Positions 20,153-34,696 of a DNA stretch of 35,630 bases are shown in pieces. The stretch is from the IMG/VR virus record IMGVR_UViG_3300027980_000073, positions 1 through 35,630 of that record; one strand, written 5' to 3'. The DNA comes from a virus. The notes beneath the pieces are model-generated. The model worked only from the letters and a program-made list of their open reading frames with translations. It did not search any database and was not told the DNA's origin. Position 1 is the stretch's first letter; every line of letters begins with the position of its first letter. Position numbers and translations under genes: made by a program.

Positions 20153-22042
20153 CTATCGTGAGTAACCTTGGGCTTGCGCTTGCATTTTTAAATTAAGTAC
20201 AGTTAATGTCTCGTCATTTGCAACGTTTTCAAATAAGACTTGCAAGTAAGTAAACTTTTTAACTTTCGCCTTTATCCTCAATGGTTGAGGGTTTCTATTT
20301 GTTTGATATGTGAAATCTGAATAATCCCATGAGCCATAATCAAACAATCTGTATTTAACTGTTGACGATTTGGCGCTTGCAGAATCTTCGTTTGACTTAT
20401 CTGTTAAAAACTTAATGTCTAATGATGTTTTACTTGCCGGGCTAATTGCAACCCATTCGTCACGCATCATTTTTCTAAACTCTAATTGTCCAAAGTCTGT
20501 AAAACCAAGGTACACCCTCATGTCTATATCAGTGCCTAAAACCTCACCATCTGCCGTGTAGGAGTCGTTAAAGTTTTCTATGGTAGTAGAACCTATATAA
20601 TATACTTGTCCGTCTACATCAAAGAATTTAGATGCTGATACGTTAGTGTATTTGTAAAATGTATCGTTTCCGTAGTTCCATAAGTAGACCACATCACCTA
20701 CGCATAACCAGTATTCTTTGTTATTCTTGTGATTAAATGTTACCGCAGTAGATAAATCCAACTCTTGAAGTGATTTTTTAATCTTATCACTGATAATCTT
20801 AGTGCCACGTTGGTTTTCTACTGAGGTGTCTGACCATAGCCACATGCTGTAAGCATCTAAACTTACCGGTGTGTCCTCTATTAATTGTACCATTTTCGGA
20901 GCAATGTTACCAACAGACTCATTAAGATCATAATATGGGAATTCGTATGGGTTTAGACCTTGATTGTTTGCAAAGCTTGGGTTAATGTTTGGCACTACTA
21001 TTCTTGTTGAATTTTCTTTAAATACTAACAATGTTTGTTGTTGGGCCTTCATGTCTGTGATACCAAATTCGTTTGAACCTACTATCACTTTGGAGTTAGA
21101 AGGGTAGTAATTGGCTTTGCCTACCATTGAGAATATAAAGGTGTTAGGTTCTAGTGTACTACCATACCAAAATATATTAGTGTCGTTACCTACTCCGAAA
21201 TCAACTTGATATTTATATGCTTGGAATTCTGCTAGCGTACCCGTGTCTTTAGTGTAAGTAATTAACACTTCTACACCTAAAGGTGGGGCAACGTTAAACG
21301 TAGGTTTTCCTGTTACTCTGTTTACAGTAAAGTCTATGTTTTCAACTTTTGCTACACCGTCAACAGTAGCCGTTACTAAATCAGCATCTATGTTTTGCTC
21401 AGGTAAAGTATACTCCGTGGTTCCGTCCGCTTCGAAATCTACTGTTTTAGAACCTGTTAACAAATTGATTTCTTCAAATGGAACACCACCTGTACCGTCA
21501 GGTTTAGCACCTGTAGACACGATTGGGATATATGGCGTTACATCTTCATAAGTCACACCATCCCAAGTTTTAAAACTTGTACCAGCTTTTAACCATAGCT
21601 TAGAATCAAAATAGAATATCTCACAGTACCCATCTGTTATAGCGCCTATTGTAATAACTGGCGGGTTTGCTGCTTCGTCCCATATCCCTGAATCGTCCCA
21701 TACATCTGAATCGTCCCAAGCGCCTTGAAGTAACGAAGACAGCTCTGTTTCAGAAGATACAACAGAGAGGTCTCTTTGATAAAGAAAACCCCCTGTGCTA
21801 AATATAATAACCTCTTTGTCGTTTAGCTCACCGTACCATCCACCATATATATTGTTTGTAGATGATATATACGTGTGATGGCCAGGTCTTTTCTGTAATT
21901 TAAAATTCTTTGTTACTCTTGCATTTTCTTGCCTAACAGATTCACCCAGCTTTATCTGTGTATTACCTACCGATTCATTTAGACCTAGGAAAGTATCTAT
22001 TTCAATCGGTGGTGACGGCTTGTATGTGCTTATACGTGCCAT
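20153..22042 (-). CDS. Tail nozzle / tubular protein B-like
   Basis: This 629-residue protein begins with IDTFLGLNESV and VRQENARVTKNFKLQKRPGHHTY, the N-terminal pattern of podovirus nozzle proteins (T7 gp12 / P22 gp10-like beta-propellers). Trp-, Gly- and Asp-rich beta segments follow throughout (YGGWYGELNDKEVIIF, FYFDSKLWLKAG, EYWLCVGDVVYLWNYG). Repeated WDDSDVWDDSGIWDE near 110-125 is an unusual acidic loop. It lies just downstream of the adaptor gene, as expected, and forms the distal tail tube through which DNA leaves. Confidence 0.8.
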   Translation of the reverse strand: MARISTYKPSPPIEIDTFLGLNESVGNTQIKLGESVRQENARVTKNFKLQKRPGHHTYISSTNNIYGGWYGELNDKEVIIFSTGGFLYQRDLSVVSSETELSSLLQGAWDDSDVWDDSGIWDEAANPPVITIGAITDGYCEIFYFDSKLWLKAGTSFKTWDGVTYEDVTPYIPIVSTGAKPDGTGGVPFEEINLLTGSKTVDFEADGTTEYTLPEQNIDADLVTATVDGVAKVENIDFTVNRVTGKPTFNVAPPLGVEVLITYTKDTGTLAEFQAYKYQVDFGVGNDTNIFWYGSTLEPNTFIFSMVGKANYYPSNSKVIVGSNEFGITDMKAQQQTLLVFKENSTRIVVPNINPSFANNQGLNPYEFPYYDLNESVGNIAPKMVQLIEDTPVSLDAYSMWLWSDTSVENQRGTKIISDKIKKSLQELDLSTAVTFNHKNNKEYWLCVGDVVYLWNYGNDTFYKYTNVSASKFFDVDGQVYYIGSTTIENFNDSYTADGEVLGTDIDMRVYLGFTDFGQLEFRKMMRDEWVAISPASKTSLDIKFLTDKSNEDSASAKSSTVKYRLFDYGSWDYSDFTYQTNRNPQPLRIKAKVKKFTYLQVLFENVANDETLTVLNLKMQAQAQGYSR

Positions 22043-22051
22043 AGATACCTC

Positions 22052-22648
22052 CTAATAATTAATGTTGTATACGTCTTCTATTTCTGTAGCTTGAGCCGGC
22101 TGTGGTTGCGCAGCCTGTAATAATAGTTCATTTGCTTCTCCTTCGAAGAAGTCTGCGTATTGTGGCAAGTCGGTTAGTGCAATTTTAGCAGCTACGAAAT
22201 TGATCATAAAATTTAACGCTAACGGATTCCTAACCGGTAACTCTGCCGACAAATCTGTAATTCTTGTTGGGTAGGGGTTGTATATTACTCTCAAAGTGCC
22301 TTCAAACCAATACGGAGTGTACAGTACATTTCCAACTTCAAGCTGTGTAATAGAGTCTATTTTGTAAGTGTCTGTATCTTCTACAATCTTAACTAGTTGA
22401 CCAAAATCACTAGGCATAGCGTTAGGTATCCACTTCCTAGCTTCTTTCTGTTCGTCTGTTGGAGTTAATGTTAATTCGTATGTGTTGTAATATTCGGCGT
22501 ACTTATATACTTTATTAAGTCCAGAAAACACGTATCTAACAGCATTGGTATCAGTTTCTGCTGTAGAACCTGAACTATTAACCACTCCGTCCGTGTTGTA
22601 ATCATCGACCAACGCTCTAGCGTCATATATTAAATCTTGTATAGTCAT
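22052..22648 (-). CDS. Head-tail adaptor protein (tubular protein A / gp4-like)
   Basis: This 198-residue protein starts with TIQDLIYDARALVDDY, a helix common to podovirus adaptor proteins. LNKVYKYAEYYNTYELTLTP and IPNAMPSDFGQLVKI follow, and a helical C-terminal region (LALNFMINFVAAKIAL) packs against the portal in this family. Size, order (upstream of nozzle) and pattern fit T7 gp11 / P22 gp4 homologues. Family assignment rests on pattern and order. Confidence 0.72.
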   Translation of the reverse strand: MTIQDLIYDARALVDDYNTDGVVNSSGSTAETDTNAVRYVFSGLNKVYKYAEYYNTYELTLTPTDEQKEARKWIPNAMPSDFGQLVKIVEDTDTYKIDSITQLEVGNVLYTPYWFEGTLRVIYNPYPTRITDLSAELPVRNPLALNFMINFVAAKIALTDLPQYADFFEGEANELLLQAAQPQPAQATEIEDVYNINY

Positions 22649-22655
22649 GTTTCAC

Positions 22656-23717
22656 CTACATTTCTGTGAAAATGAACGAAGCACCGCTTAAAATCGTAAC
22701 TGTACCAGTGTCGCGCTCTGCTATAAGTGTAATTTGATCGTACGGATCTAACGTGAACGATATATCAACAGGTACTGTTTTTGTATCATCATTACCAAAC
22801 TGCGCTATGATGGTAGACGTTGAGTCTTCATCTAACCCAGTAGAGAATCGTTTTATTCTTACTTTAACTTCAACTGAGCTAGTACCTCCACCTGTTCTAT
22901 TGATGGGTATTGAGCCTGACAATCTAAAATCTTGCTGTATGATAGATTGATACCTTAACCAATCCACTCCACCATCTGATACTAAATCAAAGCGTTTACT
23001 TTGAGGTAGTAAATCAACACTGCCAGCAGTTAAGATTTCAGCGTATGTTACTGTGTTAACAGGTAAATTAATATTGGTTTCTATAGAACCGTAACGCTTA
23101 ATATTTTCAAGTTCTAGTATGTCCCAGTGTGGCACTACTGTCTGGTGTGCTGTAAGCTCTACTAACTCATACTTGTATATTAGTTTACCCCATTTAAGAC
23201 CTCTTTGTCGCTGTAAACCTCTACATATAATGATTAAACCTTTATCGTTATTTGATAGCTCCAGGTATATTCTTGTGTAGTCTCTGTTGTTAATAGATGA
23301 CACATCAGGAAGAATGAGAGCTGCTTCGTTCGTCCTTACATCAAAACTTATTAAAGACGTCATGTCCTCAACTTCAAATGTTGACATTATTCTGTAACTA
23401 GCAAAAGTGTAACCAGCGTGATCATCATCAAAAGTCAACTTCGTTTGTGTATTTGACAATACCACAGCATAGTCTACTTCGCCAGCAACTGTAGTTAACT
23501 CCACCACGTAATCAATCCATTGGTCAGTAATGTAGTTTGCTATACCATCTGTAACGCTGTTTGATGTTTGAGAAGAGACAGGACCGGACGCGTTATCTGC
23601 TCCGGCTGTGTACTCGTATGGTTTAGTGGTCAGTGTTTCTTCAACCGTTAATGTATTATTGTTAATTCGTGTTCTTATATCAAATAAGCTTTCTCCATTG
23701 TTGAAAACATTACTCAT
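22656..23717 (-). CDS. Virion structural protein, beta-rich
   Basis: This 353-residue protein consists of successive beta segments without catalytic motifs. TNEAALILPDVSSINNRDYTRIYLEL at 128-153 is a phage structural type of strand region, and the C-terminal ~100 residues (SVEVKVRIKRFSTG, ISFTLDPYDQITLIAERD) look like a jelly-roll or Ig-like domain. It lies between the capsid accessory genes and the adaptor, so it could be a head fibre or a tail-collar component. Exact function unknown. Confidence 0.65.
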   Translation of the reverse strand: MSNVFNNGESLFDIRTRINNNTLTVEETLTTKPYEYTAGADNASGPVSSQTSNSVTDGIANYITDQWIDYVVELTTVAGEVDYAVVLSNTQTKLTFDDDHAGYTFASYRIMSTFEVEDMTSLISFDVRTNEAALILPDVSSINNRDYTRIYLELSNNDKGLIIICRGLQRQRGLKWGKLIYKYELVELTAHQTVVPHWDILELENIKRYGSIETNINLPVNTVTYAEILTAGSVDLLPQSKRFDLVSDGGVDWLRYQSIIQQDFRLSGSIPINRTGGGTSSVEVKVRIKRFSTGLDEDSTSTIIAQFGNDDTKTVPVDISFTLDPYDQITLIAERDTGTVTILSGASFIFTEM

Positions 23718-23727
23718 TTAACACCTC

Positions 23728-24072
23728 CTACGGTTCATTTGCTAAAATCTGCTTTAATTCATCAAATTTCAAAGGTATCATCGAGAAATCATTTGAAACT
23801 ATAGCTTTTAACCACATTCTTTGCATTTTGCCATTAGAAAACTCTAAGTGACGTATATACATTTTTGTGGCGACGCTGAAATCTGTTAGCTTTTTAACGT
23901 CCACTTTAGCATCTAACGCTTGCTTTATTAATTCATCGTCAATAGTTCTGAGTTTTTTGTATACCTTGTTGGCTTGTTTAATTTGAGAACATGTGCATAA
24001 CTCCTCAGCCGTTACACCGTTCTCGGCGAACTTTTCAACGGTAGCCACTTGATAATATTGTTCATAGTGCAT
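23728..24072 (-). CDS. Small helical structural-region protein
   Basis: This 114-residue protein is mostly helical with an early two-Cys segment (EELCTC), a basic middle (KQANKVYKKLRTIDDELI) and a C-terminal FDELKQIL. The all-helical profile in a run of virion genes suggests an assembly chaperone or small connector rather than a shell protein. No family recognised. The upstream ribosome site is strong (GGAGGTTTAT). Confidence 0.6.
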   Translation of the reverse strand: MHYEQYYQVATVEKFAENGVTAEELCTCSQIKQANKVYKKLRTIDDELIKQALDAKVDVKKLTDFSVATKMYIRHLEFSNGKMQRMWLKAIVSNDFSMIPLKFDELKQILANEP

Positions 24073-24081
24073 ATAAACCTC

Positions 24082-24444
24082 CTACACAGGTTCTGGCAAG
24101 TCTGCCGGGGCATAGAACATAGTAGAATCAAAGAACGCAGACCAAGAAAGGAATACGGCATCGTCTAGTGGTTCGTATTTGCCTGTTGGGTTATGTCCAG
24201 GTAGTGGACTGATATGACACCTACCAACTGCGCAATAATCTTTTGCGTTAATTGTAGTAGTGTAAAAACATTCTGCATATGTTTTAGTTGGATCACCCAA
24301 TGTTGCATCTAATAAAGTATCTTTAGTTAACCCTTTATCTGTTAGGCATACATAAACTAAATAGTTAGGTATTGTAGAACCTTCGGCAATGTTCATTTCC
24401 ATGTATGGTTTATTAGTTTTAAATTCCATTAAATACTCGCTCAT
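24082..24444 (-). CDS. Small beta-rich structural-region protein
   Basis: This 120-residue protein has beta-prone segments (IPNYLVYVCLTD, YCAVGRCHISPLPGHNP) and a C-terminal Trp/Phe-rich stretch (FLSWSAFFDSTMFYA). It starts behind GGAGG, 9 bases after the larger upstream gene. Position suggests a head decoration or neck component; no specific family is recognised. Confidence 0.6.
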   Translation of the reverse strand: MSEYLMEFKTNKPYMEMNIAEGSTIPNYLVYVCLTDKGLTKDTLLDATLGDPTKTYAECFYTTTINAKDYCAVGRCHISPLPGHNPTGKYEPLDDAVFLSWSAFFDSTMFYAPADLPEPV

Positions 24445-24453
24445 AGAATCCTC

Positions 24454-25812
24454 CTATGGTATTGATTGGTATTTTTTTGCCTTGCTTAAGCAAGGTTCGA
24501 TTAATGCAGTTTGGTAAAACCCGAATGATTGTTCTGTTGAGTTGTAGAACGACTGGTTATTTTCTATGCTTAACAATGTAGCGATCTCTTTAACCTTGTT
24601 CAAGTGACTTGTTTGGTCTATCCATATCTCTGCTTGGTCTGCTATGTGCATGTGGTTGTAGTCGTCTTCCAGGATTAGAGAGTTACCGACTACTATTGCG
24701 CCAGATGTTGGTAGTGGTGGGGTTTCTGTTACGTAGTCCCCTTCGTAAGTTCCAATGTGTGAAAACTCAACACTTTCACCATTTGGCACAGTGGCATTGA
24801 TGAAGAACTTTAATTCGTCATTTGTAATTGTAGAATCCGTTGTGAGAGTTCTTCTTTGTTGGTCTAACAAAGTGCCGTCAAACGAAACGAATCCGCCAAC
24901 GCCAGAAGATTGTAATCCGAACGTACCACTATTAAATGTCTTCGTTACATCAATTACAACTGTATAAACAGTAGATGTTTTAGTGATTCCAGTAGAGATC
25001 ATACCTATGAATGTATTCGTTGCATTACTTATAATTTCTACTGAATTAGAATTTATAAGTACGTTCGCTGGCGTAGATGTTTCCCATTTCCCATAATCAA
25101 CACCATTATCAACAACCCCATCAACAACCCTCTCATTAATACCTATCCTACCGCTATAATCAGGTGATGGTCTAACTCCGCCCACATAGCACTGTGGGAT
25201 GCCTAGGGAGTTAAGGAATATTAGTTGACCTATAGGTATAGTAATCAATCCAGCTTGGTCAAACGTCTGCGTTCCATCTGCTTCAATATATCCCTTTTCG
25301 TCATGAAAACTAGTTACAATATAGTTTCTCACCACTGGTTCGGCTGGTGCTAGGAACTGTTGCGCAAGTTTTGCTTCAACGTCTGCATCATCCCTAAACA
25401 GTTGAAATATACCATCACCATTTTTTGAGTTTAAGTCTAGCTTGAACACGTCACCGCTTATTGTAGTTTCAAACTCCCTTACTCCGTTAACTGGTGTGAA
25501 AAACCTACCGTTCGCGTCCCAAGTAGTATTAACCACGTTGCCTAGCCCATCTACGTACGTGATAGACTCATTGGCAGCACTAGCAAGCTCTAAATAGTTA
25601 CCGCTGCCTGTTGCAAGTGTATTGCCAGGTACAGCCACCCTACCCACTTGGTTACCGCTGCCTACCTTGTCAATCAGCACTCCGTCTGTTGAACCTTTTG
25701 AGTAGGAGAGTAGGCCGCATTTTTTAATTAAGTATTGTATTATACCACCACCGGTAGTAAACCCTATAGGATTAAAACCGAATCGTGGGAATCCTGTGTT
25801 TTTGAAGCCCAT
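24454..25812 (-). CDS. Putative head fibre or adhesin with carbohydrate-binding-like domain
   Basis: This 452-residue protein has a Phe/Gly-rich N-terminus (GFKNTGFPRFGFNPIGF) that may anchor it, then repetitive beta segments. At about 245-365 lies a stretch like the jelly-roll carbohydrate-binding modules of fibre proteins (WETSTPANVLI..., YTVVIDVTKTF, ELKFFINATVP..VEFSHIGTYEGD). The C-terminus (about 375-452) is helical. It is encoded just after the capsid terminator, suggesting a surface head fibre or early adhesin. Assignment is inference. Confidence 0.55.
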   Translation of the reverse strand: MGFKNTGFPRFGFNPIGFTTGGGIIQYLIKKCGLLSYSKGSTDGVLIDKVGSGNQVGRVAVPGNTLATGSGNYLELASAANESITYVDGLGNVVNTTWDANGRFFTPVNGVREFETTISGDVFKLDLNSKNGDGIFQLFRDDADVEAKLAQQFLAPAEPVVRNYIVTSFHDEKGYIEADGTQTFDQAGLITIPIGQLIFLNSLGIPQCYVGGVRPSPDYSGRIGINERVVDGVVDNGVDYGKWETSTPANVLINSNSVEIISNATNTFIGMISTGITKTSTVYTVVIDVTKTFNSGTFGLQSSGVGGFVSFDGTLLDQQRRTLTTDSTITNDELKFFINATVPNGESVEFSHIGTYEGDYVTETPPLPTSGAIVVGNSLILEDDYNHMHIADQAEIWIDQTSHLNKVKEIATLLSIENNQSFYNSTEQSFGFYQTALIEPCLSKAKKYQSIP

Positions 25813-25821
25813 AACGACCTC

Positions 25822-25989
25822 CTATTGTGGGTACCATTCGCCATTGTAATACACGTACCAAGTAGCTGTATCCACTACTAAAACTAAGTCTTTTTTGTCC
25901 GCATCTGATAACGTTGTAACTCCTACACCGCTCGGCGTAAACTCAGTAGCTAAAAATTTTTTATATCCATTGTCTCCTTGTACTACCAT
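25822..25989 (-). CDS. Small beta-rich protein after the capsid terminator
   Basis: This 55-residue ORF has AATAGGAGGTTACT before ATG 25989. The C-terminal half contains VVDTATWYVYYNGEWYPQ, a strand-hairpin rich in aromatic residues typical of small phage structural or fibre-associated peptides. It lies directly downstream of the hairpin that ends the capsid unit. No family recognised. Confidence 0.6.
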   Translation of the reverse strand: MVVQGDNGYKKFLATEFTPSGVGVTTLSDADKKDLVLVVDTATWYVYYNGEWYPQ

Positions 25990-26002
25990 AGTAACCTCCT
26001 AT

Positions 26003-26040
26003 TAAAAAGGGCAACACAACGTATATGTCATGTTGCCCTT
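26003..26040 (-). terminator. Intrinsic terminator / attenuator after the major capsid unit
   Basis: AAGGGCAACA (minus strand, 26040-26031) pairs perfectly over 10 bp with TGTTGCCCTT (26016-26007) around a 14-base loop, followed by TTTTTAA. It separates the scaffold/capsid genes from the tail genes and should lower downstream expression. Confidence 0.85.
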
Positions 26041-26050
26041 GGCTTGGACT

Positions 26051-26158
26051 TTATTTCTTTTTAGTTTCTTTTACAACTTCAAAACCGGCTCTAATAAATG
26101 CAGATACACAATTTTCATGCACCTCATGCACATATTCGCCTTTTTTCACTTTAACCAT
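26051..26158 (-). CDS. Very small basic protein after the capsid gene
   Basis: This 35-residue ORF has AGGAGG before ATG 26158 and follows the capsid stop by 9 bases. It starts VKVKKGEYVHEVHENC and ends in a Lys-rich tail, resembling the short Lys/Glu-rich peptides found beside some capsid genes and annotated as hypothetical. The ribosome site and tight spacing support translation. Function unknown; a minor capsid or cementing role is possible. Confidence 0.6.
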   Translation of the reverse strand: MVKVKKGEYVHEVHENCVSAFIRAGFEVVKETKKK

Positions 26159-26167
26159 ATTAACCTC

Positions 26168-26995
26168 CTACGCTGTTTTGTGAGCTGCACACGCATTCAC
26201 CTTTTGGGCAAACGTGAAGCAATCGTAAATCCAACGGCCTTCAAGTAGAGCGCCAGAGATACCAGGTGCATCTTCGTGCGTTTTAAGGTCAGACAGTTGT
26301 TGTGGCATACCGTTAGCTGATGGGTGTGTTAAGATCATAGCTGTATTCGCTGGGAATAGAACCGATGGAACTTTAACAATTTTTACACCGTCAATTTCAC
26401 CAATTTGACCGTTAATCAACATTTTCTGGGCCATGTCTGACGCCTTTACAAATGTGTCGTCTCTTTTAATTAAGTTACAAGTTGAAGGTGTAAGATATGC
26501 AATTCTACCCTTCATTGGTACTTTGTCCTCGTCAAGCAATTCTTGCAAATCAAGGAATTTTTCGTAAACGTTAGCGTTTGTCAATGCTGCTGTTTTAACA
26601 TGTGTTGCAGTTGTTGCAGATGCAAGCAAAACACCAAACGCGTAAGTATCTACCTCGGGAATGTATTGTTCGTCCATTTGAATTTTTGTGTATGCACCAA
26701 CTGTTTTCACAAGGTTTTGTTGTAAATAGTTACCTTTATCAATGCTTGAAGTAAATGATCTATCTTTTGTAATTGTATACTCTGCCACAGTGTCTTGAAC
26801 TTCGTTAACCGTTCCGTAACGACTTGTACCAGTTCTAGTATAGTCACCTAACACCTGTGAAGTTAGTGTGTATAGCTTAGCCGTGTTAACGCCTATAAAA
26901 TCAAATTTAGCCCCAAACGCTGACTTAGCAAGTGAACCCAATTCAAAACGTTGATCAATTTTTTTACCATACTTCGCTGCGTAATTAATAGCCAT
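26168..26995 (-). CDS. Major capsid protein
   Basis: This 275-residue protein lies directly after the scaffold gene. It has the profile of a small HK97-fold shell protein: an N-terminal arm (about 1-35), an E-loop/spine region around YGTVNEVQDTVAEYTITKDRSF, and DKGNYLQQNLV. Next comes a central domain with KGRIAYLTPSTCNLIKRD and IDGVKIVKVPS, then a C-terminal ILTHPSANGMPQQLSD..HED segment characteristic of this capsid family. Strong GGAG before the ATG, a dedicated upstream promoter and a terminator after it fit high expression. Confidence 0.85.
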   Translation of the reverse strand: MAINYAAKYGKKIDQRFELGSLAKSAFGAKFDFIGVNTAKLYTLTSQVLGDYTRTGTSRYGTVNEVQDTVAEYTITKDRSFTSSIDKGNYLQQNLVKTVGAYTKIQMDEQYIPEVDTYAFGVLLASATTATHVKTAALTNANVYEKFLDLQELLDEDKVPMKGRIAYLTPSTCNLIKRDDTFVKASDMAQKMLINGQIGEIDGVKIVKVPSVLFPANTAMILTHPSANGMPQQLSDLKTHEDAPGISGALLEGRWIYDCFTFAQKVNACAAHKTA

Positions 26996-27011
26996 GTTTT
27001 AATCTCCTTTT

Positions 27012-27812
27012 TTAAAGGAACTCTCCCAGGAAATCGTCTTTAACGCTATCGTCACCACCTTGAGTCTTTTTAACAACTGATGTTTTTTTATTATTGTTGT
27101 TTGTTTTATCTATAGACAACTGTTGTTGTAATTTCTCAATCTCTTGTTTTAAACCTTCAACCTCTGCATCTTTTTCACTTACCTTTTGATTGGTTAGATG
27201 TTCAGCGTATGAAGTGGAAAGGTCTTTACCGTCTAATTGATAAGATTGTAAGACAGACTCAGGTACATCTTCGATTTTAACGTCAGGGAATTTTTCAACA
27301 AATGAATCAATCATTCTTTGTTCTCGAGATTTATAACCTTCGTTGAACTCCTTTATAACGTCCTGTTCGTTCCTGTTTTGTTCTTCCGATATGTTTTTTG
27401 CCATCACGGTCAACAACGCTTCAGATAGTCCTTCTAATCCATCATATCCTAACTTGTCGCCGATAGTGGCTAGTCGATTTAACTTTTCACTAGACTCATT
27501 ATACTTATCTCTGAATCTTTGTGCATTCTTGCCGATTTCAATAGCTTCAACAATTTCGTTGTCGCTCATATCTCCGACTTTACCTTTTTCTTTTAGAAAC
27601 TTAAACTCTAAGTCAGCAATGTTTCTTGCTACTTCTTCCTCAGTTACCACTTCAGATTCATCGGTTTCGTCCGTCGATTCTTCCTTTGATTCCTCAGTTG
27701 TTTCTTTGGGCGACGTTTCTTCTTCTGTTCCTTCGTCCGTCGATTCAGGTACATCGTCAAAGAATTCGTCTGGCGTTACTTCAACTTGTTCATTGGCTGT
27801 GAACTCGTTCAT
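27012..27812 (-). CDS. Capsid scaffolding protein
   Basis: This 266-residue protein is strongly acidic (residues 10-60 are almost all Glu, Asp, Thr and Ser) and then coiled-coil, with a long helix at about 205-230 (KDAEVEGLKQEIEKLQQQLS) and a short C-terminal end (DDFLGEFL) that likely contacts the capsid. Low complexity, charge and its place between portal and capsid genes match scaffolds. It is the first gene behind the promoter at 27853-27881. Confidence 0.85.
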   Translation of the reverse strand: MNEFTANEQVEVTPDEFFDDVPESTDEGTEEETSPKETTEESKEESTDETDESEVVTEEEVARNIADLEFKFLKEKGKVGDMSDNEIVEAIEIGKNAQRFRDKYNESSEKLNRLATIGDKLGYDGLEGLSEALLTVMAKNISEEQNRNEQDVIKEFNEGYKSREQRMIDSFVEKFPDVKIEDVPESVLQSYQLDGKDLSTSYAEHLTNQKVSEKDAEVEGLKQEIEKLQQQLSIDKTNNNNKKTSVVKKTQGGDDSVKDDFLGEFL

Positions 27813-27852
27813 ATATTTATTCCTCCTTGGGTATGGCTGCCCTTATACATAT

Positions 27853-27881
27853 ATTATGCAAAATATTTTGCACATTGTCAA
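27853..27881 (-). promoter_or_regulatory. Capsid-unit promoter with a 16-bp perfect palindrome
   Basis: On the minus strand, TTGACA (27881-27876) overlaps the portal stop and is followed after 17 bases by CATAAT (27858-27853). The spacer is almost filled by the perfect palindrome TGCAAAATATTTTGCA (27872-27857), a likely regulator site. The scaffold gene starts 41 bases downstream. Confidence 0.75.
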
Positions 27882-29515
27882 ATTCCTGTAGCATTCATCA
27901 TCATTTCTTGTTGTTCTGGTTTCATGCTTAGATATTGATTTTGCGCTTCTGGTGTTAAAGCGGCTAATTCTTGTTGTCTTATAGATTCTTTTTCTTGCAG
28001 TTCTTTGCGTTTTTTTATCAATCCATTCTTATTACGAACAAACCCTTCTGGCAACCTGTCTAGGTACTCTATAAAGTCTATTTGTTCACGTTCTAGTAAA
28101 TTATCAAGTGTTTGTATTTCTGCAAGTTCTGACCAATAAGAAGATGGTCCTACGTCAACTTTTGGTGTTTTATACATTTCTTGAAGTTGGTCAAAGTCAT
28201 ACATCTGCATTTCTGCATTATCGCCATCCGTGATAGCTACAGGTCTTGTACCAAACTTATACGCGATCATATCTAAGAAGATACGCCCCAAATCCTCATA
28301 CCAATTATACATGTTTTGCATTGGTATCTCCAAAGGTATACCGGCTTGTTTTGATGCTGTAGCTATAGATGTGCCACTAGCTTGTTCTGGATTAACATTT
28401 CCAAGTAAAGCATCATTAGCACCTACGGCTTCTTGCATGTACGTCTTGGCTAGTTCTACCATGTTCATCAAATCACCACTCATATTAGCCGGAGCAATGT
28501 ATCCAGCAACATCATTTATGCTTTGACCAGGCCCTAAATTAACACCGTATTGCGCCGTAACTCTTGGGTCATAACCAGCGATCAAGCTAGGGTTGTAAAC
28601 GAATTTCGGGAAAGATTGTAGCATAGCGTGATACATAGCAGCCGAAAAAGCTTTGTTTATAAATATCTGTGTATCAACCAAACCTGTAACAAAGTTATGC
28701 CCATGATATGTGTTTCGCCTTTGTATCCAATTACCTAGCGATACAGGGTACATAGTACAACCAGTATCTATATTTTTATATACGTAGGCTGACTCAGTAC
28801 ATTTAGTTGCGTACACCTTGCCATCTTTCTTTCTGTAAGTGATAACATATGTCGCTTTCTTGCTATCTTCGCCCTCCATTTCAAGTTCACCATAATGACC
28901 AATTTGTTCATCGTCATTATTATCTTCGCTTATCTCCTCATTAAGTTCCCCGACTTCTTTCTGTTCTTCTTTTAAGTCTGAAACTAAAGCTCTCCCGACA
29001 ACTTGTATATACTTTTGTCCTTGTACGTCATTAGTATTTGCGTTAGCCATGTAAAAATTAGTAGGACTCACTAACTCAAAATCAATCTGTCCATCAGTTC
29101 CGCCATATTTACCGTCGTAAGGTTTCTTTGCTACATCAAAAATCATATGACCGATGTAGTCACCTGTAACGCAACCATCCCATAAAGCTTCACTCGCTTT
29201 TTGTGACAACTTTACTCTGTCTGCAAATTCGTCCCATACTGAGTTAATAATAGCGTCCGTATCATCTGTATCATCATCAACAACAGATGCAAATTTAACC
29301 TTTGGGTTACTGGACATAATTGAAGCTATGAAAAACGTAGCAAATCTATTTAAGTAGTTAAATACTGGAGCTGGCTTGTCAGAGTCTAACTTAGCGTTAC
29401 GCCATTGCTTCGAGTAGACGAAATCCCAATTACAATCAACCTCGTCATAAAAAGAAGGTTCTAAAGAATTGTTATAAGCCACTCCGTTTTGATATAATTC
29501 ATATTCTTTAATCAT
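27878..29515 (-). CDS. Portal protein
   Basis: This 545-residue protein has the podovirus portal profile. The N-terminal part is EPSFYDEVDCNWDFVYSKQW; the core contains the family-like segments NRFATFFIASIMSSNPKVKF, FELVSPTNFYMANANTND and YPVSLGNWIQRRNTYHG. Then comes a long helical stem with LVDTQIFINKAFSAAMYHAM and GNVNPEQASGTSIATASKQA. The C-terminus is Gln/Glu-rich helical (LTPEAQNQYLSMKPEQQEM). It lies between terminase and scaffold, the standard order. It forms the dodecameric DNA channel. Confidence 0.88.
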   Translation of the reverse strand: MIKEYELYQNGVAYNNSLEPSFYDEVDCNWDFVYSKQWRNAKLDSDKPAPVFNYLNRFATFFIASIMSSNPKVKFASVVDDDTDDTDAIINSVWDEFADRVKLSQKASEALWDGCVTGDYIGHMIFDVAKKPYDGKYGGTDGQIDFELVSPTNFYMANANTNDVQGQKYIQVVGRALVSDLKEEQKEVGELNEEISEDNNDDEQIGHYGELEMEGEDSKKATYVITYRKKDGKVYATKCTESAYVYKNIDTGCTMYPVSLGNWIQRRNTYHGHNFVTGLVDTQIFINKAFSAAMYHAMLQSFPKFVYNPSLIAGYDPRVTAQYGVNLGPGQSINDVAGYIAPANMSGDLMNMVELAKTYMQEAVGANDALLGNVNPEQASGTSIATASKQAGIPLEIPMQNMYNWYEDLGRIFLDMIAYKFGTRPVAITDGDNAEMQMYDFDQLQEMYKTPKVDVGPSSYWSELAEIQTLDNLLEREQIDFIEYLDRLPEGFVRNKNGLIKKRKELQEKESIRQQELAALTPEAQNQYLSMKPEQQEMMMNATGI

Positions 29516-29676
29516 TCTGATCTCCTATAGGCTTGATTCTTTCCGTAGTCCATCATCGTTTGCAAATGTTTTAACATCGGATCTTCTTTCTGCTCAACTT
29601 CTTTAGATGGCTTTTTCTTGTCGTACAAAATATAAGCAACCAATAAAATGTTTGTTACAAGTAAGATATACTCCAT
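29512..29676 (-). CDS. Small single-TM protein between terminase and portal
   Basis: This 54-residue ORF (ATG 29676 behind TTGGAGG) has one N-terminal transmembrane helix (about 2-18) followed by a Lys/Glu-rich helix and an MLKHLQTMMDYGKNQAY tail. Its stop overlaps the portal start (ATGA), so it may tune portal translation. No family recognised. Confidence 0.6.
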   Translation of the reverse strand: MEYILLVTNILLVAYILYDKKKPSKEVEQKEDPMLKHLQTMMDYGKNQAYRRSE

Positions 29677-29679
29677 GCT

Positions 29680-31143
29680 TTACCTCCAATTCATCATAGT
29701 GTTAATGTAGTTATCTTCTGCGCGCGGTTTTACATCTACCTTTTCGCCAAAGTAATATACCATTTGACTTATAGCTTGCGTCATTGCGTCAACGTTATCA
29801 TCATTCGCACCATTAGGAAACGCATACCATTCTTCTAGCACATGCCCAGTAAACTCTTCACGTGGCACCTTTACATTTCCACCAGCTAAATAAGGCAACA
29901 CCGATTGAACTCTTGATTCTTTTCCGCCTAATGGGTTTACAGGTACTATTCCAGTTATCTCTCGTGACAAAGTGTTTATTATAGCTGAACCATTTGCCTT
30001 ATCCTCTATGAATATAAAGCCTATATTATACCTTTGCCTCATAGTTCTTATCGCTTGTAATGTGGTTAAAAAATCGTATCTGCCTGTCATTACATCGATC
30101 AAATAAAAATCTATTCCTATTTTTCCCCACACATGAATAGCCACTTTATCACTTTTAGCTGTATCTTTAAAAGTTGCGTCTACAGATAAACAAACGCTAA
30201 CCATTTCTGAAATTTTATCCTGAGTTTTGATATACCAATTGCCAGGGTTTTCAAACCATTCCCTTTTTATCAAGTTACCTTCTGCTGCCGTTGGCCTACC
30301 CTGGTAAAGTGCGTTGAAGTCGCGCGGATACTGCTTTCGTTCTTCTATAAAATCATAACCGTATCTATCTGGCCAAAGCGGTACACCTATAGCTCTGCCC
30401 AATAAATCGTGCTCTTCTGCTTCTAATGGTAAGTTAACAATGTCCCATGGGTATGGGTTGCCATGCTCGGGATTTAGAAGTCTGCCTATTAGATCATCTT
30501 CGTGCCACCTTGTCATAATCACAATAACAATCGCCGGCGGCTCTATCCTTGTACTTAGTGACGATACCCATTCTTGCCATATTTTTTCCCTCGTCGTCTC
30601 TGAATTGGCTTCTTCTGCCGTTTTAATAGGGTCGTCTATAATCAATAAGTTAGCACCAAACCCTGTAATACCACCCAATATACCAGCTTTACGGATAACC
30701 GAACCGTTTGACAACCTTGTAAAATTTTGATTATTCGATTCTACCGTAACGCCAAATATATCATGCACTTTTAACTTGTTCGCGTTAGACCTTGCAAAGT
30801 TATTTGCTAAATCTATACTATAAGCTGTCATTATCACTTTAGCGTTAGGCTCTCTTGCGCAAAAGTAAGATGGCAAAGTCTCGGATATCGTCATTGATTT
30901 ACCGTGCCTTGGCGGCATAGAAACCATCAGATACTGCTTAGCTGGTTCCAATTCCCCTTTTAACATCAAATCCCTATTACTAATCATCTTGTCGATTTTA
31001 TCAGTTAATAGGGTTGAATGTGGTAACTTTATATAATTATCATTAGTGTACTCGACATACGAAGCGTAACTTTTAGTGGCCCTGTCTTTGTATTCAGCTT
31101 CAAGAAGTTCTAACAATTCCTTTTCTTCTTGGTTATTCAGCAT
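29680..31143 (-). CDS. terL: Terminase large subunit
   Basis: This 487-residue protein packages DNA. The ATPase Walker A MPPRHGKS lies at 76-83, Walker B LLIIDD at 166-171, and TRWHEDD at 211-217, a signature of phage large terminases. The RNase H-like nuclease domain follows with LSVDATFKD (about 318-326) and FIEDKANG (about 375-382), the acidic metal ligands. Length and motif order match functional terminases. Gene order (small, large, TM protein, portal) is standard. The ribosome site AAGGTGG precedes the ATG. Confidence 0.96.
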   Translation of the reverse strand: MLNNQEEKELLELLEAEYKDRATKSYASYVEYTNDNYIKLPHSTLLTDKIDKMISNRDLMLKGELEPAKQYLMVSMPPRHGKSMTISETLPSYFCAREPNAKVIMTAYSIDLANNFARSNANKLKVHDIFGVTVESNNQNFTRLSNGSVIRKAGILGGITGFGANLLIIDDPIKTAEEANSETTREKIWQEWVSSLSTRIEPPAIVIVIMTRWHEDDLIGRLLNPEHGNPYPWDIVNLPLEAEEHDLLGRAIGVPLWPDRYGYDFIEERKQYPRDFNALYQGRPTAAEGNLIKREWFENPGNWYIKTQDKISEMVSVCLSVDATFKDTAKSDKVAIHVWGKIGIDFYLIDVMTGRYDFLTTLQAIRTMRQRYNIGFIFIEDKANGSAIINTLSREITGIVPVNPLGGKESRVQSVLPYLAGGNVKVPREEFTGHVLEEWYAFPNGANDDNVDAMTQAISQMVYYFGEKVDVKPRAEDNYINTMMNWR

Positions 31144-31195
31144 TTATTCACCACCTTTTAATATATCGCCGTATATTTTAGCACTTGTTGCATAA

Positions 31196-31675
31196 TTATT
31201 CGTTTAATTTGGATTCTAATTCGGTTATTCTCTTTCTTCTTTCCTCCGGTGTAAGATCATTTGTCGCATCTACTGTAGTTTGTTCAATTTCTTGCTTCTC
31301 TTTCCAACCTTTAAAGTTGTTTGTCAAATTAAACCTTGCGCCATTTGACACATTTGTGAACAACATACCCTCTGCATATTCCTCAACTTTAGACTTAGCG
31401 CGTGTAACCGTGTCAATGAACTGATCTTTCGCTTGATAATTTAAAAGTGCCTGTCTGCTAGTAAATCCAAGCGATAAAGCCAATCCCGTAATAGTTGGCG
31501 GTTTTTCATTTTCTTTTACCACTTTACCAAACCTATTAATAACTGGGTTGCCTTCTTTGTCTAATACTGTTTGACCTTCGCACTCTTTAAAGTATGCATC
31601 AATTTTCTTTTTCATTTCTTCTGGCTTCTTATACATTGGTGGCGCACCACCTGGATGTTTTTCTTTCTTACTCAC
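31196..31675 (-). CDS. terS: Terminase small subunit
   Basis: This 159-residue protein starts at GTG 31675 with GGGAGGGG upstream. PGGAPPMYKKPEEMKKKIDAYF at the N-terminus and TITGLALSLGFTSRQALLNY at about 61-80 form the DNA-binding helix-turn-helix of phage small terminases. A coiled region and a charged C-terminus (LTPEERRKRITELE) follow. It recognises the packaging site and activates the large subunit encoded 52 bases downstream. No pac/cos site can be named from sequence alone. Confidence 0.9.
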   Translation of the reverse strand: MSKKEKHPGGAPPMYKKPEEMKKKIDAYFKECEGQTVLDKEGNPVINRFGKVVKENEKPPTITGLALSLGFTSRQALLNYQAKDQFIDTVTRAKSKVEEYAEGMLFTNVSNGARFNLTNNFKGWKEKQEIEQTTVDATNDLTPEERRKRITELESKLNE

Positions 31676-31862
31676 TCACAACCAACCCCTCCCAATAATG
31701 CTCTTTGTACAACTCATAGACACCAGTTACTTTATACATCTCTTCGTATATTTGCGGATACATATTGCCAAAATCCTCGTCATGCATCACAATCGGCGCG
31801 TCTTGATCCAGTTTCTTTAGTTCTTCTATAAACTCTTTTACTGTTAGTATATGTTTACTCAC
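31668..31862 (-). CDS. Hypothetical small acidic protein
   Basis: This 64-residue ORF uses GTG 31862 and overlaps the small terminase by 8 bases. The N-terminus TVKEFIEELKKLDQDAPIVMHDED resembles the start of the protein at 33513-33710 (TVGELKEMLEGVSDDCKVFINN); both share a helix-then-strand pattern seen in small uncharacterised phage proteins. The GTGAGTAA start-site bases are repeated at the small terminase start. Confidence 0.6.
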   Translation of the reverse strand: MSKHILTVKEFIEELKKLDQDAPIVMHDEDFGNMYPQIYEEMYKVTGVYELYKEHYWEGLVVSE

Positions 31863-31877
31863 TCATTCATCACTCCT

Positions 31878-32045
31878 TTATTTCATTTTATCTTTGCATA
31901 ATAGTGTATCTATCTTTTTTATTGGTAACTCCAAAGTTAATCTACCAATATCTTCAATATCTTCTTTTAGAGTATAACCAGTTACTTGAATTTCTGCGCC
32001 GTTGAGATAAACTTTTCCATCACTTCTTATTTCAAATTTGTTCAT
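31878..32045 (-). CDS. Hypothetical small beta-prone protein
   Basis: This 55-residue ORF has GAGGTGATGGT before ATG 32045. It starts MNKFEIRSDGKVYLNGAEIQVTGYTL, a beta-rich opening common to small proteins in Bacillus-type phages that resemble tail or regulatory peptides, and ends basic. It lies just upstream of the terminase operon. Function unknown. Confidence 0.6.
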   Translation of the reverse strand: MNKFEIRSDGKVYLNGAEIQVTGYTLKEDIEDIGRLTLELPIKKIDTLLCKDKMK

Positions 32046-32049
32046 ACCA

Positions 32050-32187
32050 TCACCTCATAAACCTACCGAACAGCTTGCCCAGTAGTCTCCTTTTTACTCT
32101 CTTACCTACTCTATTCTTAGCTACTGCGTTTAGATCGTTTCTTACCCTTAGTAGCTTGTATATAGCGCTAATCATTGCAATACTCAT
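32050..32187 (-). CDS. Small very basic protein
   Basis: This 45-residue ORF is strongly basic (about one third Lys/Arg, ending KRVKRRLLGKLFGRFMR), so it may bind nucleic acid or membranes. It overlaps the upstream gene by 20 bases. No good ribosome site precedes ATG 32187; the internal ATG 32175 (four codons later) is an alternative. Uncertain but consistent with the dense packing of this region. Confidence 0.45.
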   Translation of the reverse strand: MSIAMISAIYKLLRVRNDLNAVAKNRVGKRVKRRLLGKLFGRFMR

Positions 32188-32365
32188 TGAAATTAGAGTG
32201 GTCTGTCTTCATAGACTTCGTAACACGCACCGTTCCGCATTGGAGTTGCTCCATATTCCAGTATATTTCACTGGCATTAAATTTTATTTCGTACTGCACA
32301 ACTTCATCTTCTTCATGTAACGCTTTGTACAATTCCCACATAGCTTGTTTGGTTCTTTTATTCAT
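32168..32365 (-). CDS. Hypothetical small protein
   Basis: This 65-residue ORF has GGGAGGTAGAGA before ATG 32365. It has a helical start (KRTKQAMWELYKALHEEDEV) and then beta-prone sequence. Its beginning resembles that of the ORF at 32590-32769 only loosely. It overlaps both neighbours by 8 and 20 bases. No family recognised. Confidence 0.6.
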   Translation of the reverse strand: MNKRTKQAMWELYKALHEEDEVVQYEIKFNASEIYWNMEQLQCGTVRVTKSMKTDHSNFNEYCND

Positions 32366-32567
32366 TCTCTACCTCCCACACTCTTACATGTATTGAATAA
32401 CAATCTGGTCTTATGTGTGTAAGATGTCTAAATACTTGGCTACCTGCCTTGTATTCCCCTTTTATGTTTTGATCGTTAACTATTTTTTCAATCATCAATC
32501 TTTTGATTTGCTCTCTGTTTTCCCACTTATCATTATTTACCTCGTACTCTAAAGAAAAGTCTTTCAT
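32358..32567 (-). CDS. Hypothetical small protein
   Basis: This 69-residue ORF has AGAGGGGTGAGTA before ATG 32567. The sequence is charged, with a helical centre (NREQIKRLMIEKIVNDQNIKG) and a beta-prone end (YSIHVRVWEVENE). It overlaps the next gene by 8 bases. No family recognised; likely cotranscribed from the promoter at 32781-32809. Confidence 0.6.
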   Translation of the reverse strand: MKDFSLEYEVNNDKWENREQIKRLMIEKIVNDQNIKGEYKAGSQVFRHLTHIRPDCYSIHVRVWEVENE

Positions 32568-32589
32568 TACTCACCCCTCTTGTAAACTT

Positions 32590-32769
32590 CTAACGTCTCG
32601 ACATTCTATTAACCTTGCTGTTTTCTAAACCGTTTATATGAGAATGAAAACCGAAAGCATCTATTTGCACAATTATCCTTGATAATATTCTACACTGTCT
32701 GTAATTGCCGTAACCATGTTCTATGTGGTCTTTTGTGGTTTTGTGTACTGCTTTTTGAAACTTGTTCAT
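32590..32769 (-). CDS. Hypothetical small His/Lys-rich protein
   Basis: This 59-residue ORF starts at ATG 32769 behind GGAGGTAGAGA. The product is basic with several His. A promoter -10 box lies only 1 base upstream of its GGAGG, so transcripts from that promoter would start at or inside the ribosome site and be almost leaderless for this gene. It may be translated mainly from longer upstream transcripts. No family recognised. Confidence 0.55.
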   Translation of the reverse strand: MNKFQKAVHKTTKDHIEHGYGNYRQCRILSRIIVQIDAFGFHSHINGLENSKVNRMSRR

Positions 32770-32780
32770 TCTCTACCTCC

Positions 32781-32809
32781 ATTATACCATACCCTTGGTT
32801 TAGTGTAAA
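32781..32809 (-). promoter_or_regulatory. Internal leftward promoter with extended -10
   Basis: On the minus strand TTTACA (32809-32804), 17 bases, then TATAAT (32786-32781) preceded by TGG, an extended -10. It follows a weak hairpin and would add transcripts for the small genes, terminase and beyond. Confidence 0.65.
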
Positions 32810-32826
32810 AGAGCCTTGTTAAAGGC
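32807..32826 (-). terminator. Weak intrinsic terminator
   Basis: GCCTT (32826-32822, minus strand) pairs with AAGGC (32817-32813) around a 4-base loop, followed by TCTTTTA. The stem is only 5 bp, so it is probably leaky. It lies just after the stop of the 70-residue gene and before a new promoter. Confidence 0.45.
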
Positions 32827-32828
32827 CA

Positions 32829-33041
32829 TTACTTTGCATTGCGACTCATAGTATTTTTATCAGGATAATACTTGTTGTATAATTCTTCGCAATATCCATC
32901 TTCCACTACATCAAATCGTTGCTTGTGCTTTTTGTGTACATATTTCGAATAGCCTTCTTTATCTGACTTAAAAATATCCTCTCCTGTATCAATGTCGTCA
33001 AGTAGTTTATATAACTCATATATTATTTTGTCTTTATCCAT
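32829..33041 (-). CDS. Hypothetical small acidic/basic protein
   Basis: This 70-residue ORF has TAAGGAGGTAAGGGT before its ATG. It starts with an acidic helix (DKDKIIYELYKLLDDIDTGED) and turns basic and Tyr-rich (KYVHKKHKQRF, ELYNKYYPDKN). It is followed by a weak hairpin. No family recognised. Confidence 0.6.
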   Translation of the reverse strand: MDKDKIIYELYKLLDDIDTGEDIFKSDKEGYSKYVHKKHKQRFDVVEDGYCEELYNKYYPDKNTMSRNAK

Positions 33042-33053
33042 ACCCTTACCTCC

Positions 33054-33323
33054 TTAAAATATCAATTCTATAGCATAAACAACAACTAATATCAGTGCAG
33101 TAATTGCCATATATTTATTCCTTGCTTTCTTCTCTATCTCATCCCACTTAATACTTCTTTTCGTTACTTCCATTTCACATTTTAGCGCTAATTCCTCGTA
33201 TTCTCTCTGACTATTTTCACCTTCTAGTCTATACCTTTTGTGTAACTTGTCGTATTCATCTTTCCACTTGGTATCTACGTCTTTCTTGTACACCTCATAG
33301 TCCATTGTTATTGTTTTACTCAT
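33054..33323 (-). CDS. Tail-anchored coiled-coil membrane protein
   Basis: I chose ATG 33323 (89 residues), preceded by GAGGTG; the longer frame begins at GTG 33329. The product is a long charged coiled coil (about 10-70) with one C-terminal transmembrane helix (AITALILVVVYAIELIF). The coiled coil would face the cytoplasm. The layout is mirror-like to the early protein at 6816-7217 (N-terminal TM plus coiled coil). Function unknown. Confidence 0.65.
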   Translation of the reverse strand: MSKTITMDYEVYKKDVDTKWKDEYDKLHKRYRLEGENSQREYEELALKCEMEVTKRSIKWDEIEKKARNKYMAITALILVVVYAIELIF

Positions 33324-33325
33324 AC

Positions 33326-33508
33326 TCACACCTCGGCTCTGTATCTATTTGTTTCTATCAATCTCATAGTTCCAATTATCAGAGAAACAATTTCTTCATG
33401 TTTATCTTTTGTAGATATAGAAGTTTCTATTTCGGCTTTTAACACATTGAAATTTTTCCTATGCAGTTTTCGGTTTTTATTTAACACCTTTCTCTTATGA
33501 TAGTTCAT
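33326..33508 (-). CDS. Hypothetical small basic protein
   Basis: I chose ATG 33508 (60 residues); the longer frame to 33544 runs back into the upstream gene. A GAGGAA lies about 10 bases upstream. The N-terminus is very basic (NYHKRKVLNKNRKLHRKN), then a helical part (KHEEIVSLIIGTMRLIETN). No family recognised. The start is uncertain. Confidence 0.5.
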   Translation of the reverse strand: MNYHKRKVLNKNRKLHRKNFNVLKAEIETSISTKDKHEEIVSLIIGTMRLIETNRYRAEV

Positions 33509-33512
33509 ACTC

Positions 33513-33710
33513 TTATTCCTCACTCTCGACCACATCGGCATCAATTATAAATTCTTGAGAGTACCCCGAGAAATTACCATGCCTTGCGTTCCAACTACAA
33601 TCAATTGGTACAATAACATAATCTAAATCACCATTATTAATAAATACTTTACAATCATCTGAAACACCTTCTAACATTTCTTTTAACTCACCTACAGTTA
33701 ATCTATTCAT
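33513..33710 (-). CDS. Hypothetical small protein (helix plus strand pattern)
   Basis: I chose ATG 33710 (65 residues) with GAGGAAGACA upstream. It has NRLTVGELKEMLEGVSDDCKVFI at the start and DLDYVIVPIDCSWN next, a pattern shared with the protein at 31668-31862 and with several unnamed phage proteins. It ends in ESEE, part of the repeated gene-junction sequence described below. Confidence 0.6.
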   Translation of the reverse strand: MNRLTVGELKEMLEGVSDDCKVFINNGDLDYVIVPIDCSWNARHGNFSGYSQEFIIDADVVESEE

Positions 33711-33894
33711 TGTCTTCCTCACTCTCTTGTATAGCTTGTAATTTGTTTTCTAAGTCTCTTATTCTTTTCAAATAAGTTTCATTCTTTGCGGCGCACAGCT
33801 TCCAATGTTTAACAGCTTCTTCAAATTGGGATTGCAACTTTAATATTATTCCCTCTTTGACTTGGATGTCTTTGATTAGTTCCTCTCTAGTCAT
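33703..33894 (-). CDS. Small coiled-coil protein of the MTREE junction family
   Basis: This 63-residue ORF starts at ATG 33894 overlapping the upstream TGA. It is a coiled coil from end to end (IQVKEGIILKLQSQFEEAV, LKRIRDLENKLQAIQ). Its start MTREEL and its end AIQESEED are shared with the neighbouring gene because the junction DNA is repeated. It overlaps the next gene by 8 bases. Function unknown. Confidence 0.6.
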   Translation of the reverse strand: MTREELIKDIQVKEGIILKLQSQFEEAVKHWKLCAAKNETYLKRIRDLENKLQAIQESEEDNE

Positions 33895-34072
33895 AATCTA
33901 TCTTCCTCACTCTCTTGTATAGCTTTGTCTAAATACTCTTCTACAAATTTGCTTCTTAAAGCTTGCATGTTAAATATTTCGCACGTTTTCATTCTTTTGG
34001 GGCTATTCTTCAAACCTTTAGTTAGTTTATCCAAATATTTTAGTTCCTCTCTAGTCATAATCTATCTTCCTC
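33876..34072. repeat. Direct repeats at successive gene junctions
   Basis: A perfect 33-bp repeat occurs at 33876-33908 and 34040-34072, each covering a gene end, the overlapping ATGA and the next gene start (encoding EEDRL stop / MTREEL). A second perfect 25-bp repeat, coding AIQESEED, occurs at 33901-33925 and again at 33713-33737, outside this span. The units flank small unrelated genes, suggesting duplication or recombination at gene borders. Confidence 0.85.
33891..34058 (-). CDS. Small basic protein of the MTREE junction family
   Basis: This 55-residue ORF has GAGGAAGATAG upstream of ATG 34058 and overlaps both neighbours by 4 bases. Between the shared ends (MTREEL and AIQESEED) its middle is unique and basic (KLTKGLKNSPKRMKTCEIFNMQ). 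Function unknown. Confidence 0.6.
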   Translation of the reverse strand: MTREELKYLDKLTKGLKNSPKRMKTCEIFNMQALRSKFVEEYLDKAIQESEEDRL

Positions 34073-34207
34073 TCTACCAGATATACCTATAGGTTGTTTA
34101 ATTGGTGAATAATCAGCGCCAGGAGTTGCAATCTTACATATCTGCTTAGCTATCTCCTTTTCATCGTACCCAGTGTAGTTGTCTATTACTACCTTCTCTC
34201 TAGTCAT
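34055..34207 (-). CDS. Small protein of the MTREE junction family
   Basis: This 50-residue ORF starts at ATG 34207 with AGGAGTAGGGT upstream and ends in the shared EEDRL. Its middle (KEIAKQICKIATPGADYSPIKQPIG) is unlike the neighbours. It begins MTREK, so only its first codons match the family start. Function unknown. Confidence 0.55.
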   Translation of the reverse strand: MTREKVVIDNYTGYDEKEIAKQICKIATPGADYSPIKQPIGISGREEDRL

Positions 34208-34223
34208 ACCCTACTCCTCTTTC

Positions 34224-34667: not shown

Positions 34668-34696
34668 ACCCTCTTACCTCTAAACTTATATCTCAT
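34664..34696 (-). pseudogene. Ten-codon remnant resembling a YopX-family N-terminus
   Basis: ATG 34696 behind GGAGGG starts MRYKFRGKRV and stops at TGA 34666-34664, overlapping the YopX gene start. Many YopX-type proteins begin MREIKFRGK, so this looks like the start of a deleted paralogue, or a tiny leader that couples translation to YopX. No product function is claimed. Confidence 0.4.

Follow-up and report, generated by a model that had tools for sequence, protein, structure and literature searches.

What controls the genes that follow the portal gene on the minus strand of this phage? The DNA analyzed here, called the window, is a stretch of 35,630 nucleotides from a virus (IMG/VR record IMGVR_UViG_3300027980_000073), in which the earlier note had proposed, at 27853-27881, a capsid promoter with a palindromic spacer where a dimeric regulator could act. 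The minus-strand gene order is TerS (phrog_606), TerL (phrog_38), portal, scaffold-like gene and major capsid, and the site is located in the 65-nt gap between the portal and the scaffold-like gene, extending into the portal stop. The features are as follows, scaffold X being the scaffold family analyzed below:

27878..29515, minus strand: portal protein (P22_portal, PF16510; phrog_156)
27876..27881, minus strand: -35 hexamer TTGACA, which overlaps the stop codon of the portal gene
27857..27872, no strand assigned: perfect 16-nt palindrome TGCAAAATATTTTGCA, without counterpart in six divergent relatives
27853..27858, minus strand: -10 hexamer CATAAT, with a predicted transcript start at about 27846-27848
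27829..27842, minus strand: leader hairpin GGG-CAGCCATA-CCC, 11-24 bases past the -10, apparently a degenerate member of the CAACCAUA-loop family
27822..27827, minus strand: Shine-Dalgarno sequence AGGAGG, one base after the hairpin
27012..27812, minus strand: scaffold-like protein of 266 aa, with relatives at the same place and a scaffold-X profile match
26168..26995, minus strand: major capsid protein (phrog_422)

First, we found that the TTGACA and CATAAT hexamers were present on the minus strand as claimed, matching the consensus at 11 of 12 positions with a spacing of 17 nt, within the 16-18 nt expected of a sigma-70 promoter. The first gene downstream is scaffold-like and the major capsid gene comes second. 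In the region 20000-35630, promoter-like sites were not in excess (47 observed versus 52.6 +/- 7.4 in shuffles). The closest divergent relative with sequence here (L123, also L003; coat 62% identical) has a promoter-like site as well (10/12, TATAAT, TG before it), and in both phages the predicted start falls a few bases 5' of the leader hairpin. These two were the only ones of 31 distinct leaders that scored at least 10/12 as promoter, compared with 1/31 in the control. Terminator-like hairpins were found in 24/31 distinct leaders versus 5/31 in the control; the two leaders that carry promoter-like sites, those of the window phage and L123, had none. The L123 site lends modest support to the promoter reading, in which transcription probably begins at TTGACA/CATAAT in the window phage. 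A second strong promoter-like site (TTTACA-17-TATAAT, TG before the -10, 11/12) was observed on the minus strand at 32781-32809.

Second, the palindrome is perfect over 16 nt, as had been noted, although it does not fill the spacer: the 17-nt spacer consists of ATG plus the first 14 palindrome bases, and the remaining CA already forms the beginning of the -10. Four perfect 16-nt palindromes were observed in the window versus 0.8 on average across 400 first-order Markov windows (four or more in 1%); the other three, of different sequence, are at 7348-7363, 21564-21579 and 24480-24495. At least one such palindrome occurred somewhere in 54% of the simulated windows, and none of the 400 had one over the spacer of a promoter scoring at least 10/12. 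The coincidence of palindrome and promoter is therefore unlikely a priori, yet it was chosen after the fact. The check that had been suggested, a search for the palindrome in related phages, was run. L001 and L002 (99.98-100% identity) represent one and the same phage and hence provide no test of conservation, and all six divergent relatives with sequence there (L003, L004 and L006-L009) were without it. No second copy within 1 mismatch was present in the record; a single 3-mismatch match was observed at 33968. The exact 16-mer occurred in 107 IMG/VR stretches (216 oriented matches), and a promoter of at least 10/12 accompanied it in two, both with the identical 29-mer. A site for a dimeric regulator should be kept in relatives or repeated at other promoters, and the palindrome was neither. 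Given its absence from these six relatives and the lack of a near copy elsewhere in the record, the regulator idea runs into its own refutation test.

No DNA-binding regulator was recognized by Pfam among ten early or flanking proteins, which instead gave helicase, ERF, SSB and YopX-type matches, and no dimeric regulator could be tied to the site. A conserved operator was rejected on the conservation data. An intrinsic terminator was also rejected, as there is no T run and TAATATATG comes next; the L121 leader contained no terminator-like site. An operator used in this phage only, where a dimeric phage or host regulator would time the scaffold-capsid promoter, appears improbable: the perfect palindrome over a strong promoter match, unmatched in the simulations, argues for it, whereas its absence from six divergent relatives, the lack of a second near copy and the occurrence of the 16-mer elsewhere in IMG/VR without promoter association argue against it. 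By sequence, the palindrome seems to be a separate feature, so far found in the window phage alone. Regulation of the scaffold and capsid genes at this spot was supported, via the RNA hairpin downstream and not via the palindrome as a regulator site.

Third, a hairpin just 5' of the scaffold gene is common to many phages, mostly with a stem of 4-5 bp and an 8-nt CAACCAUA loop. Examples from the same gap of relatives, directly 5' of the ribosome-binding site, are GGG-CAACCATA-CCC, GCT-AAACCATA-AGC and GCCC-CAACCATA-GGGC. When the coat-protein search was widened, 63 viral and 7 genome loci were obtained. Selection was by loop and Shine-Dalgarno sequence with the stem ignored: among 66 loci, 4 were short upstream and 16 had no loop match, leaving 46 of the 62 with enough upstream sequence, or 33 distinct stretches. 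In these, Watson-Crick pairs counted outward from the loop numbered 31, 32, 32, 31 and 25, and then 3, a sharp stop after the fifth pair. In an alignment of 31 distinct leaders (A3; L131 and L152 re-registered by hand), whose counts are inflated by related sequences, 94.8% of the stem cells were paired versus 55.4 +/- 3.0 after shuffling (0/500), and the covariation score was 0.988 versus 0.222 (0/500). Double changes were present in all 5 pairs, but 183/500 shuffles did likewise; 14 further pair types were seen, a count reached in 77/500 shuffles. When the partner was slid by 1-3 columns, pairing fell to 30-46%.

A further alignment (A4) omitted the window, L123, L152 and L180, and two models were built, R1 with the window hairpin and R2 without the window and its nearest relative. 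We also scanned IMG/VR with the pattern CCAACCATAG-N2-9-GGAGG, which fixes the loop, the first pair and GGAGG and ignores the rest of the stem. At least 120 matches were obtained, and 31 of the 120 listed had a stem of at least 4 bp, compared with about 1.9 expected at equal base frequencies. In alignment A6, L343 was added, and identical 22-mers were excluded along with L287, which is from the L151 contig. In a second set of 27 rows picked by scaffold and not by stem (26 from the scan plus phage Page), pairing reached 98.1% versus 60.1 +/- 3.6 shuffled, and covariation 0.892 versus 0.156 shuffled. No Rfam family reached its cut-off on the hairpin in the window, 15 relatives and 12 further loci, and among the matches listed in a search of literature titles and abstracts, no report of the CAACCAUA hairpin was found.

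The position of the hairpin is also conserved. In the 31 leaders, the distance from the stem end to the Shine-Dalgarno sequence is -2 to +5 nt, and that to the parsed start codon is 12-18 nt in 28/31 (in the layout table, L167 scored 0 pairs since G-U was excluded). Additional copies were found inside the gene: 16 in the first 150 nt (13/62 distinct loci) versus none in the other 40,374 nt. These copies are read in two frames, one giving ANHS and the other LQPY or LPQS, which points to selection on the RNA.

We then asked which gene family the hairpin accompanies. Among 82 coat-selected loci, which were not dereplicated, 52 had scaffold X and an untruncated leader, 20 had another scaffold and 10 were truncated. 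The hairpin with its 8-nt loop was present in 48 of the 52, and the other 4 had a 6-nt-loop version. In contrast, it was found in 0/20 loci with other scaffolds, the threshold of the locus scan being at least 3 bp near scaffold X and at least 4 bp where the scaffold differs; R1 likewise gave no match there at E<=2. Eleven statuses in this table were set by hand, namely L150, L181, L158 and L189 (hairpin beyond the scanned stretch), L167-L169 (G-U pair in the stem) and L126, L127, L135 and L138 (6-nt loop); the rows of L150, L181, L158, L126, L135 and L138 were re-read. In two of these loci, L181 (78 aa) and L158 (211 aa), the gene downstream of the hairpin is truncated.

The IMG/VR scan showed the same link: 28 of the 31 listed matches with at least 4 bp had a scaffold-X profile match, including two contigs already in the training set (L257 and L287). 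The remaining three were L232 (a terminase small subunit-like gene), L306 (a cut ORF) and L308 (chance-looking). Scaffold X was also found with three of the 89 listed matches that have shorter stems: L234 and L243 form three pairs, and the stem of L261 contains a G-U pair. Hairpin and scaffold X occur together with the coat families phrog_422, phrog_1357 and phrog_267, which are remotely related, as indicated by additional matches of the window coat to phrog_267 (7.5e-18) and phrog_1357 (1.5e-5). Among named phages, the scaffold X search led to Bacillus megaterium phages (28.9-32.0% identity). R2 found the hairpin before the ribosome-binding site in 3/3 fetched Pagevirus phages, all unseen by R2 (Page, Pascal and Palmer; E 9e-7), which amount to one observation because the 22-mer is identical in all three, and also in L158 (E 0.00037). 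In L232, the 5 bp CAACCATA hairpin at 1562-1583, before the terminase small subunit-like gene, may reflect chance or a wider use of the operator.

The window protein is, judged by its sequence, a divergent member of scaffold X. It resembles the same-place proteins of L009 (28.5%, E 4.8e-10) and L007 (25.9%, E 5.5e-7), and it matches the scaffold-X profile at E 3.9e-44, the training set of which included the identical L121 protein. It also aligns with scaffold X, where 16 of the 22 aligned members match phrog_14606, one matches phrog_3760 (head scaffolding protein) and two weakly match a tape-measure PHROG; the window protein itself had no PHROG family at E<=0.001. A sequence search returned weak matches only (best E 0.016) and no NCBIfam family. 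The AlphaFold model was of moderate quality (mean pLDDT 73.3, pTM 0.42), with no PDB fold match at E<=0.001, and neither sequence nor fold searches recognized an RNA-binding fold or domain. We call the 27012-27812 product scaffold-like on the basis of its position, the single phrog_3760 match among 22 and the long-helix model.

The copy in the window shows the features by which the family is defined, i.e. an 8-nt loop close to CAACCAUA, a stem of at least 3 bp and contact with the Shine-Dalgarno sequence of the gene that precedes the coat gene. It has a 3 bp stem and a loop that agrees at 7/8 positions (one base changed). R1, which includes it, found 27829-27842; R2, built without the window and nearest relative, did not report it at E<=10 and had its best window match elsewhere (12229-12262, E 0.22). 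The L123 copy was not significant with R2 either (14.2 bits, E 0.27). The predicted fold of the window leader (-3.7 kcal/mol, z 0.25) was no better than shuffles, the fold predicted for L123 differed from the hairpin, and a longer, read-through transcript of the window was predicted to fold in a way that breaks it. The thin stem, the CAGCCATA loop and the failure of R2 would fit a chance match or a decayed relic, in a phage where only the promoter matters. However, we regard this as rather unlikely, considering that 0.0006 hairpins with 3 bp and a loop within 1 mismatch would be expected in the 65-nt gap, that the only one in the window is found exactly there, that it lies one base from the Shine-Dalgarno sequence as in the relatives, and that L123 has GGG-CAACCATA-CCC at the same place. 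Its position, its loop and this counterpart suggest a degenerate family member, which may or may not act like the others.

How could such an element work? The site may be the promoter-plus-leader of the scaffold-capsid genes, so that a short hairpin at the mRNA 5' end would immediately precede the Shine-Dalgarno sequence. We infer that a protein would read the loop and block ribosome entry on the scaffold mRNA, and that copies after the start codon would strengthen this block. Since many phages keep the hairpin just before the scaffold start, it is a probable switch for tuning the amount of scaffold; since it goes with the scaffold family, the scaffold is the first candidate binder, and free scaffold outside procapsids would then shut off its own synthesis. 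It appears reasonably probable, from sequence comparison, that the hairpin is a translational operator that sets scaffold output with the scaffold protein as its most likely binder. Against this reading stand the weak window copy, the failure to recognize an RNA-binding fold in the scaffold, the remote kinship of the three coat families, the 6-nt loops in 4/52 loci and the hairpins of this kind at other sites (L232, L144, L010 and L126). A host protein as the binder is possible. Binding by a host factor (an RNase, a ribosomal or another RNA-binding protein), or mere stabilization of the mRNA 5' end, in either case without autoregulation, seems rather unlikely. The strong conservation of the loop across phages with three coat families is compatible with it, and the upstream terminator-like hairpins in most leaders would fit mRNA processing; however, mere stabilization does not need a conserved loop, the element tracks the scaffold family and is missing from the coat-related loci with other scaffolds, and copies lie within the start of the gene. 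A protein-free pseudoknot, in which CAU of the loop would pair with AUG around the start codon, is very improbable. Although CCAU in the loop is complementary to AUGG, the fully complementary UAUGG context was found at 1/31 starts only, which gives this idea no support, CUACCACA loops (L146 and L180) still go with AUG starts, and the in-gene copies come after the start codon.

The translational operator may be part of a more general pattern. It is a plausible, if tentative, proposal that scaffold X proteins are sequence-specific RNA-binding autoregulators, which would read the CAACCAUA hairpin before or after the start codon of their own gene, or at both places, and couple their synthesis to procapsid assembly. 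Hairpin and scaffold would move jointly between coat families, and other scaffolds would use GP20-b or AGAGAA loops.

Leader RNAs before scaffold genes are already known, and the CAACCAUA hairpin adds a variant. GP20-b RNA (Rfam RF03003, type Cis-reg) is located in phi OH2 directly before the GP20 scaffold gene (L192 2841-2904); this phage has a related coat (42.9%), a GP20 scaffold, and GP20-b instead of the CAACCAUA hairpin, which belongs with a different scaffold family. The GP20-b covariance model gave no match above its gathering cut-off in the window or 15 relatives and one in 12 further loci (phi OH2), and at E<=10 it gave 0/15 in the IMG/VR records behind the relatives. A further GP20-b search returned just two sub-threshold matches (E 1.5 and 1.7). 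Such weak matches prove little, because sub-threshold matches occurred in 9/14 control genomes too. No match to PF06810 (GP20) was found in the window scaffold at E<=0.1. With no match at the cut-off and a scaffold that is not PF06810, membership of the CAACCAUA hairpin in GP20-b was rejected.

Two other systems are comparable. Control of the P22 scaffold is post-transcriptional, and to our knowledge the RNA site behind its autoregulation is not generally defined. The coat operators of RNA phages of the MS2/R17 type are short hairpins with a conserved loop and a free stem sequence beside the ribosome-binding site. The CAACCAUA hairpin is similar in being short, with a conserved loop and a free stem, near a ribosome-binding site; in contrast, it has another loop, belongs to tailed DNA phages, and its proposed binder is the scaffold and not the coat protein. 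A regulatory role of the P22 scaffold, with autoregulation, was reported in 1985 (Wyckoff and Casjens, as cited in PMC5744158). The likeness to P22 is that the window portal is of P22 type and the scaffold gene is the proposed controlled gene; a difference is that, in the present case, the RNA element is what has been observed, and action of the protein is proposed. The hairpin represents a small candidate operator whose consensus is strict and which has a likely protein partner, and the Bacillus megaterium phages Page, Pascal and Palmer could serve as test systems. If the scaffold binds, RNA and protein would make a transferable pair and illustrate clearly how assembly can act back on translation.

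Several other hairpins were observed. About 25-40 nt 5' of the main one, a second upstream hairpin with an 8-nt loop like CUUAGCAU or CUGAAUAU, often followed by GUUAAA, was present in 15/34 scaffold-X leaders versus 0/34 controls (L132, L141, L142, L145, L146, L149 and others; the L161 copy looks like chance). It was also found in three of six GP20-type phages (L193 2838, L196 1656 and L199 1830), and in two phages it lies inside sub-threshold GP20-b matches (Staphylococcus phage 80, L196, E 0.447; Javan645, L193, E 0.0116). After the portal gene, a hairpin with the related loop CCACCATA occurs in L147 (2582, terminator-like), L152 (1250) and L156 (2183), hinting that the same factor might control termination. 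Hairpins with a AAACCATA loop follow the coat gene in L144 (915-936, R1 E 0.59; L010 918) and L126 (about 965 nt from the coat start). Tandem hairpins, two or three per locus, with an AGAGAA/AGAGAC loop and varied stems precede the gene before the coat gene in L157 (2869-2907), L163 (1606-1696) and L165 (2494-2533), where the scaffold belongs to a different family; they are perhaps a parallel operator. Finally, L191 (PP511318.1, Dulem virus 31) is filed under Microviridae, a label that looks wrong because the record is 35.8 kb long and has portal, tail sheath and tail tube genes.
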